NCBI RefSeq assembly: GCF_002464935.1
Contig: NZ_NBYY01000003.1
Location: 1-64,000 of the forward strand
Direction of reading: 5' to 3'
From: Candidatus Enterovibrio escicola
Lineage (GTDB): Bacteria > Pseudomonadota > Gammaproteobacteria > Enterobacterales > Vibrionaceae
Length of the DNA stretch: 64,000 bases
Made by a program: the position numbers and the translations under genes
In this document: positions 5,312 to 50,951 of the stretch, piece after piece
How positions within the stretch are numbered: the stretch's first letter is position 1
Layout of the letters: the number at the start of each line of letters is the position of its first letter
The notes under the pieces: generated by a model
What the model was told of the DNA's origin: nothing
The model's database searches: none
What the model saw: the letters and a program-made list of their open reading frames with translations, nothing else

Positions 5312-5445
5312 GAAAGAAGTTAGCTGAGACTTTTACGCAGGAAGGAATTTAAGGTGAATAAACATCAGGCCACATGGATATATGAGAATACGCCACACAA
5401 GCTTACAATGAAAAGAATAACCTAGAAGTTAGGTCTTATTTTACT

Positions 5446-5475
5446 GGTCGTCCCCATCAAAAGATGAGAACGACC
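5446..5475 (-). terminator. Stem-loop after tRNA-Asn
   Basis: GGTCGT and ACGACC form the base of a 12-13 bp imperfect stem with an AAAA (TTTT on the transcript strand) loop, five bases beyond the tRNA CCA end. There is no long U-run after it, so it is either a weak terminator or a processing structure. Confidence 0.5.
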
Positions 5476-5480
5476 GAATG

Positions 5481-5556
5481 TGGCTCCCCCTGCAAGACTT
5501 GAACTTGCGACATACGGATTAACAGTCCGCCGTTCTACCAACTGAACTAAGAGGGA
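5481..5556 (-). tRNA. tRNA-Asn (anticodon GTT)
   Basis: 76 nt with encoded CCA. The acceptor stem pairs TCCCTCT with AGGGGGA with one wobble; the D arm is GTTC/GAAC; the anticodon stem is GCGGA/TCCGT around CTGTTAA, giving GTT; the T stem is GCAAG/CTTGC around TTCAAGT. All arms fold, so it should be functional. It stands alone, not in a tRNA cluster, with its own promoter and a downstream stem-loop. Confidence 0.95.
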
Positions 5557-5618
5557 AAATTTGGCAATGATATAAAATACCGCTCAATACTTACACGCGC
5601 TTCACGAGAAGGAACCCT

Positions 5619-5647
5619 ATTATATATAAAGTTTGAAAGACTTGCAA
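5619..5647 (-). promoter_or_regulatory. Sigma-70 promoter for tRNA-Asn
   Basis: On the minus strand, -35 TTGCAA (5642-5647), a 17-bp spacer, and a consensus -10 TATAAT (5619-5624) lie about 65 bases upstream of the mature tRNA. This is the best promoter match seen in the window. Confidence 0.75.
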
Positions 5648-5656
5648 GTACTAATT

Positions 5657-6081
5657 TAGTTGATAACCCGAATTTCGTGCCTATTAACGTGAATAGATGA
5701 GCTAATTTTTCATGTCTATACCCAATCAACTTGAAGACATAGGTTTGATATCGTATATTCAAGTTAATTCCAGCCCAAAAAATTAATTTTCCCAAGTATT
5801 ACAAATCCTGTTAGGACAGTATGATACCTGCAGTAGTAGACAATTAGGTTGCAAGTCATACCGACGAACCATTCAAATTATAGATTGTCTGATAATTGTG
5901 CGATATGTGGATTTCAGAGGTGCACTCCCTCGAGTGCTGCCATTTACGCCAACAACATCCGTGATTTGAGAGTTGCTTGGTCAGTCAATTATTTCAGCGT
6001 TATCTCTCTCATGAACATGCAAACCCAAACCGACTGTGGCACAAAACATATAGGCATGGATATACATTCACATACCCTTTA
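5657..6081. other. Intergenic stretch with MITE-like end and an open frame
   Basis: A TATACCCAATCAACTTGAAG motif begins at 5717, with an inverted CTTGAA-type partner near 5760, matching the repeat family at 51396-51663. A plus-strand open frame runs from 5849 to the IS982 end at 6082 (77 residues, with CAICGFQRC near the start). It has no recognisable family and may be the beginning of a gene cut by the IS, or chance. Confidence 0.3.
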
Positions 6082-6264
6082 AACCTGAACTGCGCATAAG
6101 AAATGAACTAAATGCCCAAGGCGCGATCTGATTGTTTAAATAAGATCATCAGTCAATAAAGGACTTTAGATTGAATAATTCAGCCACTGTTTTCACCGAT
6201 ATTGCGGATTTTGTCAAATTTTACTTCCTGCTTAGAAAAAACACCGGATGTTAGATGTTAAAAG
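6082..6264 (+). mobile_element. IS982 5' end
   Basis: Starts AACCTGAACTGCGCATAAG and continues about 180 bp into the transposase N-terminus before IS5 sequence takes over at 6265. Confidence 0.75.
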
Positions 6265-47730: not shown

Positions 47731-47805
47731 CAGGCCTAATTAACCTAAACTGCGCATAAGTAATGAACTAAATGCCAAAATCGCAATCTGATCGTTTAAA
47801 ATAAA

Positions 47806-49144
47806 GGGTATGCGGATTTAGTGAGTAAAATGGGACTTTTAAAATCCCTTTCAAATTCTTTGATCAAAGTTAATATGCTCGAACCATAGTTCGTTACTAT
47901 TTGCGGTTCCGCAGCCAGATCAAACAAGCTAATGGCATCATTATAAATTGGATCTCGTTGATATAGTGGACGTTTCATCTTTGTGGAATCCTTCAGTAAA
48001 TAGCATCTTAGCCCTAAGAGCTCCAAAGCTATAACCTCGACCAGTACGGTTCATAACTCGAATGAGGTTGTTGAGACTTTCCGTATAAGCATTCGTTATT
48101 GGATGATCAAAATACGCAAAAATTTCATTGTGCCAGTTACCCATAGCTTTGATTAGCGGATCGAAATACCGCGTCATTTCAGGTGAAACCAGTCGTAGCC
48201 AAGCGTAGTAAGCTTGCTGAGCTTCATCACGCGTCTGACTGTTCCAAATGACAAAGAAAGACTCTTTAAGTTCGTAAGCTTCTCCCATTTCGGGATAGTT
48301 AAGTATCCAGCCAGAATAACGTAAGTATTCCGCATCTGAGAGTTCGTGCTTTCGCTTTAGCAGTATAAACCTATCTTTTAGTAGTCCACGGCGCTGTTGT
48401 GGCGTAAGTTGGCTACGTATTGCTTTTCTTGCACGCTCTAACGACTTGTTAGCCATTTTGACTACGTGGAACTTATCTATGACGATAGTGGCATTCGGTA
48501 TCATGGTTTCTACCGTGTCCTTATTAAGGATGCCACATGTCCATTGCGACAAATTCAATACGCTCTCTGTCTTCACGTTTTGTAAAGTAGCGAAGTAGAG
48601 TTGATTTATTACGGTTGTCGAGCATATCAATGACTGTTTGATGCTCAATATTGGTTAACACGCATCGAGGTTTCTTGATGATATGAATTTCATCAATTCC
48701 TAACCATTTTGGCATTTCGAATTTCAGTCGTTCTTCTTCACGCTCGCAGTAATCTTGAAATATGTTACGGATTGTTTTTTCATCCACACCTATATCATCT
48801 GCAATACTTAAAAATGTACGTTTCTAGCTCTCTCGCTCGATGTATTCAATAAGCCGTTTAGTCATCCTACGTTTTTCATCTTTGCGCGATACAAGCTCGT
48901 AGAATGTCTTATTACAACTTTGGCACTTAAAACGTTTACGATTTAGGTGGATGCCGACACGCTTGCCGTGCATGGGTATATCCATGAGAATTTCGGTTCT
49001 TTTCCCAAAACCAACGAGATCAGATGTGTAGCAGTGGATGCAAAATGAAGGCGGGCATTTTAGTTCAGCGTAAACCTGATAATCATACTCAGATTCATGA
49101 ACCTGACTAACATTGTAGTCAGGCCAATTCAAAATATTTGTCAT
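47806..49144 (-). pseudogene. ISL3-family transposase, broken
   Basis: ATG at 49144. N-terminal zinc finger (CPPSFCIHCYTSDLVGFG, then CQSCNKTF), helix-turn-helix (RRMTKRLIEYIERES), core with WLGIDEIHIIKKPRCVLTNI, TIVIDKFHVVKMANKSLERA, then ITNAYTESLNNLIRVMNRTG and RGYSFGALRAKMLF. Defects: an in-frame TAG at about 48824 where a Trp is expected (ERES-stop-KRTF), one extra A near 48533 (after AMDMWHP), and a shift near 48005. The first DDE Asp (GIDE) and second (VIDKFH) are kept. The last frame reads through the terminal repeat. Confidence 0.85.
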
Positions 49145-49177
49145 AGTCAAAAAGAAAGGAGCCGAAGCCCCTTGTTG

Positions 49178-49935
49178 TCACTCCACTTCTACTACATCAT
49201 CAATGCTAGCCTCAGCGTACAACTCTTTGGATAGCCATCGGTGGCCAAAAAATTCTTTAACCTCTTCCCGCATTTCACAGACCTTGCCGCTAAAACGGTC
49301 ACGCTCATCTTGCCTTCTAGTGCGACCAACTTGATGACAGATGAATTTTCCGCCTTTGGTCTTGTAAAGAGATAACTCTGTCCAACGACCAGTTTAACCG
49401 TTATAACTACTACCAATAGATTAATTATCAGAACTAGCCGCATTTGCTACCAGTTCACCAGTAAAGCGAACGTTTGGCGCGTTATCAATATCAAGTGTAA
49501 ATGTTTCCATGTCAGAGTCCTCGTCTACGTCAATTATTTGCTCTATCTCAAGTACGCTGTAATTAATGCTGCTGAAATCAGAATCCAGATAGTCAGCCAA
49601 TTCGTGTGCATTCAGCTCGTCACCCTCTTCATCAACAACCGTAACGCTTTCTACAGACCAAACATCATCCTGTCCCTCGTGGTTCCTGTAGACAGAGAGT
49701 CGCATTCGTCGTAGTTAAAGCCTTCGGTGTAAGTAATTTTGATACCATCTAAGGTTGAGGTTTTAGAAGCCAAACCAAAAACGTGAGGAATATCGTTCAG
49801 ATCAAAAGATTCGTTTTCTTCGTTCCACTCTTCAACCTGACAATCAAGACGCTCTGAAACTTCGCAATCTTGTTCTCGCTGCCAGTCGTTGCGAGCTACC
49901 AGAGTTTCAAATTCAGCAATAGAGATAGTTTTCAT
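49178..49935 (-). pseudogene. Passenger gene of the ISL3 element, unknown family
   Basis: ATG at 49935. One frame starts MKTISIAEFETLVARNDWQR and is very acidic (SERLDCQVEEWNEENESFD). Near 49705 a frameshift moves it to SVYRNHEGQDDVWSVESVTV, then HELADYLDSDFSSINYSVLE. The same frame continues past two TAA codons (49421-49423 and 49394-49396, probably former CAA) into TGRWTELSLYKTKGGKFICH and GHRWLSKELYAEASIDD, ending TGA at 49178. So one protein of about 250 residues broke by one shift and two nonsense changes. From memory, similar proteins sit on Vibrio plasmids; I cannot name the family. It lies 33 bp upstream of the transposase start, as an operon. Confidence 0.65.
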
Positions 49936-50951
49936 GGTTAAATCCTTGTCTTCTCAGAGTCGACGCTGAGTTCGGCTGTGGATGTCTCCACGTTCTTAAT
50001 ACAAGTGTATTTGGTTTATGATGACAATCATTAAATCCGATTTTAGCCAATTAATACATCCTGTGGGAATCAACCACTAAATCCGCATACCCAAAATAAA
50101 CTATTGACTACACAAGGACTTGTGTATGAATAACTTAGACGCTGTTTCCGTCGATGTCGATGACTTCTGCCAGACTTTCCTCCCTACATGGACAAAACAC
50201 CTAATTTCTTCCGAGATTAAACAAAGAAACAAGCCTTCTCATCTTTCAGTTAGCGAAGTGGTGACGATAGTGATAGCTTTCCATCAATCGGGGTATCGAG
50301 ACTTCAAAACCTATTACATCCACTTTGTTTGTCGTTACCTTACTAACAAATTTTCTAAATTGGTTAGCTACACGAGGATGCTAAAGTTCATGCAATATGT
50401 TCTGGTTCCTCTTTGCTATTACCTTACTCACCGTCATGGATTGTCTTTGTTGATTCATCCAAGCTACAGGTTTGTCACAACCTACGAATTCTCAAACATC
50501 AGCTCTTTAAAGGTACCTCGAAGAGAGGAAAAGAACGATGGGGTGGTTCTACGGCTTCAAACTACACTTTTTTATTAATGATCAAGGTGGCATTATCTTA
50601 GTTTGAGTGATGACGGTTAACGTGGATGATAGGAAGCCTGTATCGGAAATAGTTGACGAGCTTTGGGGTGTTTATATCGCGGGTCCATTGGAGTGGGAAT
50701 TTGCAGACAAGGGAGTGACATTGATGACGGGTGTGAAAAAAATATGAAAGCCAAAGTGATCAAACTTTAAAACCGCCTGATACTCCGGAAACGATTTATT
50801 ATTGAAACTGTTTTTAACTAACTAAAAAAACATATCCTAAATGGTCAACATGCTGGCGGGGATTATCGCGTATTCATTGCAACCAAAGAAGCCGAGTATC
50901 AAGATGATTAGGTTTGATAAGCAAGCGCTTATGCAGATCTGAGGTTAATTA

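Follow-up and report, generated by a model that had tools for sequence, protein, structure and literature searches.

Insertion sequences (IS) of the ISL3 family encode a DDE transposase with a zinc ribbon, a helix-turn-helix and conserved acidic catalytic residues, have terminal inverted repeats starting with GG and generate AT-rich target-site duplications (TSDs) of 8 base pairs (bp). Within this family, the ISPpu12-type elements carry genes for LspA, a cation transporter and a MerR-like regulator; loci L048, L098, L100 and L102 were assigned to this type by eye. More generally, IS derivatives with passenger genes are termed transporter IS (tIS) in PMC9330008. Here, we describe an ISL3-family element of 2,287 bp that is inserted in an IS982 copy and occupies positions 47806-50092 of a 64,000-nucleotide stretch (the window) of contig NZ_NBYY01000003.1 of Candidatus Enterovibrio escacola. 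The element is very probably a dead copy of a two-gene tIS that was transposed as a unit, whose relatives swap their passengers and which underwent a burst followed by decay in this genome.

The element resembles the tIS in having one transposase, ends of the IS type and a passenger between these ends; it differs in that the cargo matches no family above cut-off in the libraries searched, and the passages of PMC9330008 on tIS do not mention cargo exchange. A tIS passenger takes no part in transposition; here, sequence comparison places the gene within verified ends, and unrelated genes stand in its place in relatives. With the ISPpu12-type elements, the element shares an ISL3 transposase accompanied by co-directional passengers. 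However, the transposases of that type form a separate branch of the tree and are ~43-44% identical to the transposase of the E. coli relative described below, and their metal and lipoprotein cargo contrasts with the restriction, toxin-antitoxin or unknown genes found here. In the window, a gene for an acidic protein is the sole gene beside the transposase. A Dyella locus (L091) with an ISStma11-like annotation also has an ISL3 transposase, but it sits on a very long branch, has no co-directional gene next upstream and gave no ends in the end search.

The two ends of the element are complementary at 18/18 positions, and a search for the 18-mer that tolerated as many as 3 mismatches gave no other site in the window (0.04 expected from shuffles). 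Both flanks read AAAATAAA, a TSD matching at 8/8 positions. An empty-site probe was made by joining both flanks with one TSD copy removed, and was tested on 29 other IS982 loci, fetched from at least 42 further IS982 places among the matches listed. The probe crossed the junction in 14 of these 29 loci, the best match being 92% identical over 149 bp; IS982 copies with an empty target site exist in the same genome. Since the ends and the TSD match and the probe spans the junction in other IS982 loci, the boundaries of the element and its insertion into IS982 are observed, not inferred. The initial annotation of this DNA had reported perfect 18-bp ends and 8-bp repeats inside IS982 and had called the boundaries and the insertion certain; both statements hold, with no correction of the coordinates. 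As to the IS982 identity, a 152-residue piece of the downstream reading frame matches NCBIfam NF033520 with an expectation value (E) of 2e-8 and a score of 34 bits, the curated cut-off being 130.

Transposase and passenger lie on the same strand, the former adjoining one end and the latter placed between the other end and the transposase (Table 1). Both are broken in the window, the transposase by one in-frame stop and two single-base insertions, the passenger by a frameshift and two in-frame stops. Pieces of the window transposase match the ISL3 domains PF01610 (DDE_Tnp_ISL3) and PF14690 (Zn_ribbon_ISL3) above cut-off, in agreement with the earlier assignment to this family, and no helix-turn-helix match was obtained on these pieces with Pfam. 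The intact transposases of the E. coli and V. harveyi relatives match PF01610, PF13542, PF14690 and NCBIfam NF033550, all above cut-off. The 18/18 ends, with AAAATAAA present twice, are those of an ISL3 element. Across 22 other ISL3 transposases, 17 D, E, C and H positions show little or no variation, and copies C37 and C6 of the same genome keep all 17; the window copy is broken. The window passenger is 83-87% identical, in two frames, to an open E. coli protein.

Table 1. Features of the ISL3 element and of the surrounding IS982 copy (window positions).
Feature	Positions	Strand	Basis
IS982 left remnant (left end to insertion point)	47737..47805	+	inverted-repeat pair with 50928-50951; empty-site probe
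8-bp TSD, left copy (AAAATAAA)	47798..47805	.	8/8 with 50093-50100
Terminal inverted repeat adjoining transposase 3' end	47806..47823	+	18/18 with 50075-50092
ISL3 transposase pseudogene	47844..49144	-	Pfam PF14690 and PF01610 on pieces; tblastn matches spread over three frames
Passenger pseudogene, decayed from a gene for a 255-residue acidic protein	49181..49935	-	match to open E. coli protein
Terminal inverted repeat upstream of passenger	50075..50092	-	18/18 pair; chance expectation 0.04
8-bp TSD, right copy (AAAATAAA)	50093..50100	.	8/8 with left copy
IS982 right remnant	50093..50951	+	NF033520 match of one piece (below cut-off); at least 42 further genome matches

An open passenger was found beside the same kind of transposase at four places, namely an E. 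coli plasmid, an E. coli chromosome, Amphritea atlantica and a Lysobacterales metagenome-assembled genome (MAG), the frame being open in loci L020, L045 and L046; the passenger gene proposed in the initial annotation is thus borne out by open copies. The two E. coli elements are the same 2,300 bp at 100% identity; of 5,426 genomes of this species, 2 have the element. TSDs of 8/8 flank the copy in Amphritea and the one in the E. coli chromosome. Among the E. coli, Amphritea and Lysobacterales copies, the passenger protein is 96-98% identical, and its ratio of non-synonymous to synonymous rates (dN/dS) is 0.09-0.20 between intact elements, as expected of a gene under purifying selection. As judged from these comparisons, the passenger is a real, conserved gene and not an artefact.

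In E. coli DETEC-S792 (L060:2619-5385), the element interrupts a transposase gene of the IS200/IS605 type that is located between aroG and gpmA; this chromosomal copy and the plasmid copy of a different strain are 100% identical, a sign of recent movement. On the minus strand, antisense frames are open over the passenger at L046:4995-5774 (259 residues, Lysobacterales) and at L045:4995-5402 and 5430-6089 (135 and 219 residues, Amphritea). A match on a viral contig (L057), whose gene neighbourhood repeats that of the Amphritea locus, was dropped as an extra locus. The passenger was absent from the 17 other Enterovibrio genomes, its profile matched in 1 of 368 other genomes of a class sample and in 9 of 393 of an order sample (eight of them weakly, E 7e-6 to 7e-4), and a pattern-limited scan of 84,980 species, at one genome per species, gave 2 loci. 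In a Vibrionaceae sample of 296 genomes, own genome included, five others match the transposase, all at 40-43% identity.

Comparison with these relatives indicates, at the level of sequence, that the passenger segment was exchanged between element lineages. Per 150-bp segment, the escacola and E. coli elements are 81-91% identical over a stretch that begins at position 76 and closes with the passenger; at the border of the two genes, the value drops abruptly to the 55-75% of the transposase. At four-fold degenerate sites, three symbiont copies differ from E. coli at 22/91 to 24/89 sites of the passenger (0.24-0.27) and at 78/104 to 86/113 sites of the transposase (0.75-0.76). Between E. coli and Amphritea, the corresponding differences are 3/108 in the passenger and 53/179 in the transposase; when all bases are counted, they amount to 14/765 and 129/1308, respectively (Fisher p 6e-14).

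The transposase tree, in turn, groups escacola with V. harveyi (support 100/100). The V. harveyi element, carried by plasmid pvh3, is flanked by the TSD GAGTTTTG (8/8), and each of its ends differs from that of escacola at 2/18 bases. Its transposase gene is 86% identical to the escacola gene (83-90% at the DNA level per 100-bp segment), and its cargo consists of two genes unrelated to the passenger, one of which has a signal-like start (by eye). It is from the divergence contrast between transposase and passenger, together with this unrelated cargo, that a movement of the passenger segment between lineages is deduced. A similar picture is given by the Acidovorax/Thauera element, with a Fic gene, and the Sulfuricystis element, with a type IIG gene, whose DNA agrees at 84.6% of positions over the transposase and onwards as far as the right end, and in short patches at the left end. 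The initial annotation had named, as evidence that would count against its proposal, copies with the same ends and transposase and no passenger gene. The pvh3 element corresponds to this in part, with similar ends, a related transposase and other cargo, and it is explained by exchange, the cargo being no artefact.

New here are the exchange of cargo among these ISL3 relatives and a conserved passenger that matches no family above cut-off. In the titles and opening lines of abstracts on ISL3 passengers and tIS, no cargo exchange is described for this clade. The element may already have a name in ISfinder.

The wider comparison covered 23 related loci, comprising 21 plasmid stretches with annotation, among them those of E. 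coli and V. harveyi, and the Amphritea and Lysobacterales elements. Ends were considered verified when an inverted repeat of at least 16/20 was accompanied by a TSD of 8/8. This was the case for 11 of the 23 loci and for 0 of 460 shuffled upstream regions; locus L076 has a TSD of 6/8. Each of the 11 verified elements contains at least one co-directional gene upstream of the transposase, and such a gene is next upstream, at a gap of 1 to 202 bp, in 20 of the 21 annotated loci, the exception being the Dyella locus. In the Amphritea and Lysobacterales copies, it is the passenger that occupies this place. The arrangement, which the initial annotation had held to be rare, is thus the usual one in the related loci sampled, and no single-gene element with these ends was found among the 23 loci, 11 of them with verified ends.

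The verified elements include those of V. harveyi and Amphritea and carry a variety of cargo. The Sulfuricystis element (L084) contains a type IIG restriction-modification gene (PADLOC, E 2.7e-238), and two elements (L078 and L079) carry nucleotidyltransferase and DUF86 genes, DUF86 being of the HEPN type; the nucleotidyltransferase of L078 matches in PADLOC. An AbiEii-annotated gene occurs in L082, which has two AbiE-type genes. L083 and L085 (Acidovorax/Thauera) carry Fic and small genes; they are two insertions of one element, 99.9% identical to each other and each with its own TSD. L023 carries unknown genes. Among more distant elements with verified ends, that of Enterococcus (L089) has TetR and GNAT genes, and that of Salmonella (L090) a permease and a regulator on the other strand. 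At loci with unverified ends, the transposase is preceded at a distance of 6 bp by type ISP restriction-modification genes (L081 and L086); in L077, the second gene upstream is annotated as AbiEii and, outside the 23, an upstream gene of L094 matches Cas2 in PADLOC and is VapD-like by eye.

In the 10 records covered out of 15, the type IIG cargo, at ~96% identity, is also present on plasmids of Klebsiella, Raoultella, Aeromonas and Chitinibacter; a recombinase gene accompanies it in most cases, and no ISL3 transposase was among the features under these matches. Locus L095, considered as a further relative of the Sulfuricystis type, is 100% identical to L084 over 2,901 bp; it was dropped and never counted among the 23.

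The genome studied here, MJ02, is that of Candidatus Enterovibrio escacola, a light-organ symbiont, from the anglerfish Melanocetus johnsonii; PMC6020299 lists 57 ISL3 transposase genes in it, and reports all its transposase genes as pseudogenes, without inverted repeats or truncated, with zero complete. The assembly comprises 2,645,619 bp in 39 contigs. A DNA search gave 19 matching places, corresponding to 9 two-ended copies (one listed as two places), 3 copies cut by contig ends and 6 short pieces. Twelve copies were judged, among them C16 with large internal deletions and the three incomplete ones; the six short pieces were excluded. These 12 copies are 94.9-98.0% identical pairwise. Because 334 substitutions are private and no shared set exceeds 3 sites, the pattern is the one expected of a burst. 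Changes of G>A and C>T account for 295 of 505 substitutions. The ratios of non-synonymous to synonymous changes in the symbiont copies are 0.70 for the passenger and 0.78 for the transposase, and therefore both genes decay almost freely. Several contig ends of MJ02 fall within the element (by eye). In L010 and L016 (contigs 36 and 25), the contig ends break inside the element and the AAATAAAG flanks match, so that a single copy may have been split between them.

The passenger is broken in all 12 judged copies. By contrast, the transposase is uninterrupted in 4 of the 12, with the full 433 residues in C37 and C6, and with in-frame deletions and a reading beyond the usual stop in C38 and C15. 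The statement in the initial annotation that both genes are dead is therefore right for the window copy, with its stops and frameshifts, and does not extend to the whole genome. The difference between 4/12 and 0/12 prompted the idea that selection acts on the transposase and not on the cargo in the symbiont, which is unsupported by the ratios of 0.78 and 0.70. Copy C37 (L003:1501-3807; contig 37, 28951-31257) has both ends at 18/18, a TSD of 8/8 and an uninterrupted 433-residue transposase; C6 (contig 6, 23796-26092) has one end mismatch and no TSD. As predicted from its sequence, C37 is a complete element by the criteria quoted in PMC6020299.

Both 18-bp ends are perfect in 3 of the 9 two-ended copies. 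The copies diverge by ~2% per site from their majority, a value at which perfect ends are often expected, and perfect repeats were accordingly rejected as a clock. A comparison was also made with IS982, for which 43 matches, the window's own included, were listed from the best 40 scored of 479 first-look candidates. Relative to the window's IS982, the longer matches are 76-82% identical and three short pieces 86-89%. Since the ISL3 copies are 94.9-98.0% identical and the longer IS982 matches 76-82%, the ISL3 burst is younger than the IS982 expansion. The initial annotation had deduced from the perfect repeats that the jump was recent relative to the other debris; the order of events is retained on the grounds of divergence, whereas the perfect repeats are a weak clock.

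The passenger protein has 255 residues, an isoelectric point (pI) of 4.1-4.2 and a net charge of -37 to -41. Below cut-off, it comes closest to PHROG 34759, a group of unknown function (E 0.0027), and to EXLDI (E 0.04), and a comparison with PDB sequences gave one match at chance level (E 1.5). Acidic relatives of 264-267 residues (pI 4.2-4.25) occur on one plasmid each of Shewanella and Halomonas and on two viral contigs, and no ISL3 transposase is annotated around the two plasmid relatives in the stretches read. The C-terminal 110 residues are the best conserved part of the passenger and its relatives. Membership of EXLDI (TIGR04342) was rejected, with scores of 14.1 (P0001), 13.1 (P0010) and 15.7 (P0007) bits against a cut-off of 32. 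The likeness consists of a weak similarity in four scanned passenger or relative proteins (E 0.014-0.087), but two relatives (P0006 and the L061 protein) gave no match, and the model also matches weakly in 5 of 14 control genomes. At loci of family f185, including L066, L067 and L068, standalone proteins of ~144-171 residues have a domain that weakly matches the C-terminal half of the passenger; a gene for a TolC-like outer-membrane protein (product by eye) is near L066-L068. From its acidity, its phage and plasmid setting and the occupants of the same slot in relatives, an anti-restriction or other host-conflict role may be guessed for the passenger, a suggestion in which we place little confidence.

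Several points weigh against the proposal of a mobile unit that swaps its cargo. The case for exchange is made of rate contrasts and cargo replacement. The 23 loci were picked by hand among the matches listed and are not a census, and for 12 of them the search gave no pair of ends flanked by an 8/8 TSD. The E. coli plasmid copy and the Lysobacterales MAG copy have no TSD, and among the two-ended MJ02 copies just 4 of 9 have one of 8/8. As regards function, the passenger has no Pfam or NCBIfam match above the curated cut-off and none in PADLOC, and its structure predictions, with 2 and 4 sequences, reached a mean pLDDT (predicted local confidence) of 42.8 and 44.7. PADLOC also gave no match for 5 of the 10 cargo proteins tested (the two AbiE-type proteins of L082, the DUF86 of L078 and two from L077), and the Fic match was weak.

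The similarity of the passengers could alternatively be due to a stronger constraint on their DNA, exerted by a second function such as an antisense frame or a structured RNA, with passenger and transposase descending jointly and no exchange. The long antisense frames over the Lysobacterales and Amphritea passengers agree with such a constraint. However, the contrast holds at four-fold sites across the passenger and breaks sharply at the start of the transposase, and within the symbiont the passenger changes as fast as the transposase. Furthermore, V. harveyi, the sister of escacola by its transposase, is devoid of this passenger, and the close Acidovorax/Sulfuricystis pair also differs in cargo; we regard this explanation as quite improbable. 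It is likewise very improbable that the passenger is an accessory protein required for transposition and not cargo, even though all the open full-length copies found (E. coli at two sites, Amphritea and Lysobacterales) have it next to their transposase, given that related transposases with similar ends and 8/8 TSDs hold unrelated genes at that place. A 1-bp passenger frameshift common to C13, C36 and C16 also suggests that a cargo-dead copy jumped, although these three share only two substitutions exclusively, and repeated mutation may apply to the shared frameshift. The distant relatives of the passenger on viral contigs, and on plasmids in stretches with no annotated ISL3 transposase, argue in the same direction. 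Finally, the AbiEii-, nucleotidyltransferase/DUF86- and Fic-annotated and Cas2-like genes upstream of the transposase in relatives would fit a passenger that is itself a toxin-antitoxin-like or addiction protein. As the passenger stands alone, with no partner gene, and none of the known toxin or antitoxin families matches it above cut-off, this appears unlikely.

In the tIS reading that we prefer, the whole two-gene unit moved as a single block, producing the 8-bp duplication, and related elements retain similar ends and transposase while replacing the passenger segment. Passenger and transposase, separated by 33 bp in the E. coli copy, are probably co-transcribed. The strongly acidic passenger, of a phage or plasmid type, may help the element, or the plasmid that carries it, to persist in new hosts, for instance as a DNA mimic that counters restriction, and may have become useless in a host-bound symbiont. 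In Candidatus Enterovibrio escacola, an apparent single burst followed the older IS982 expansion, with nearly neutral decay thereafter leaving a few uninterrupted transposases. It is a serious possibility, though not the outcome we would expect, that the clade is a platform for cargo exchange, in which ends and transposase persist and the part from the left end to the transposase changes over and over, in beta- and gammaproteobacteria at least, with mainly restriction-modification, toxin-antitoxin and further host-conflict genes taking its place, and with the passenger as an unnamed anti-restriction or anti-defence protein of phage or plasmid origin.

For the symbiont, the published count of zero complete transposases in MJ02 needs rechecking, since at least one element of the assembly looks complete. 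Two waves of IS multiplication, the older one of IS982 and the younger one of ISL3, coexist in one genome, and their relative ages can be read from divergence. If the platform is real, small cargo-swapping IS-like elements would constitute a compact route by which restriction and toxin-antitoxin genes spread between plasmids, and such a route would differ from large defence islands or Tn3 transposons.

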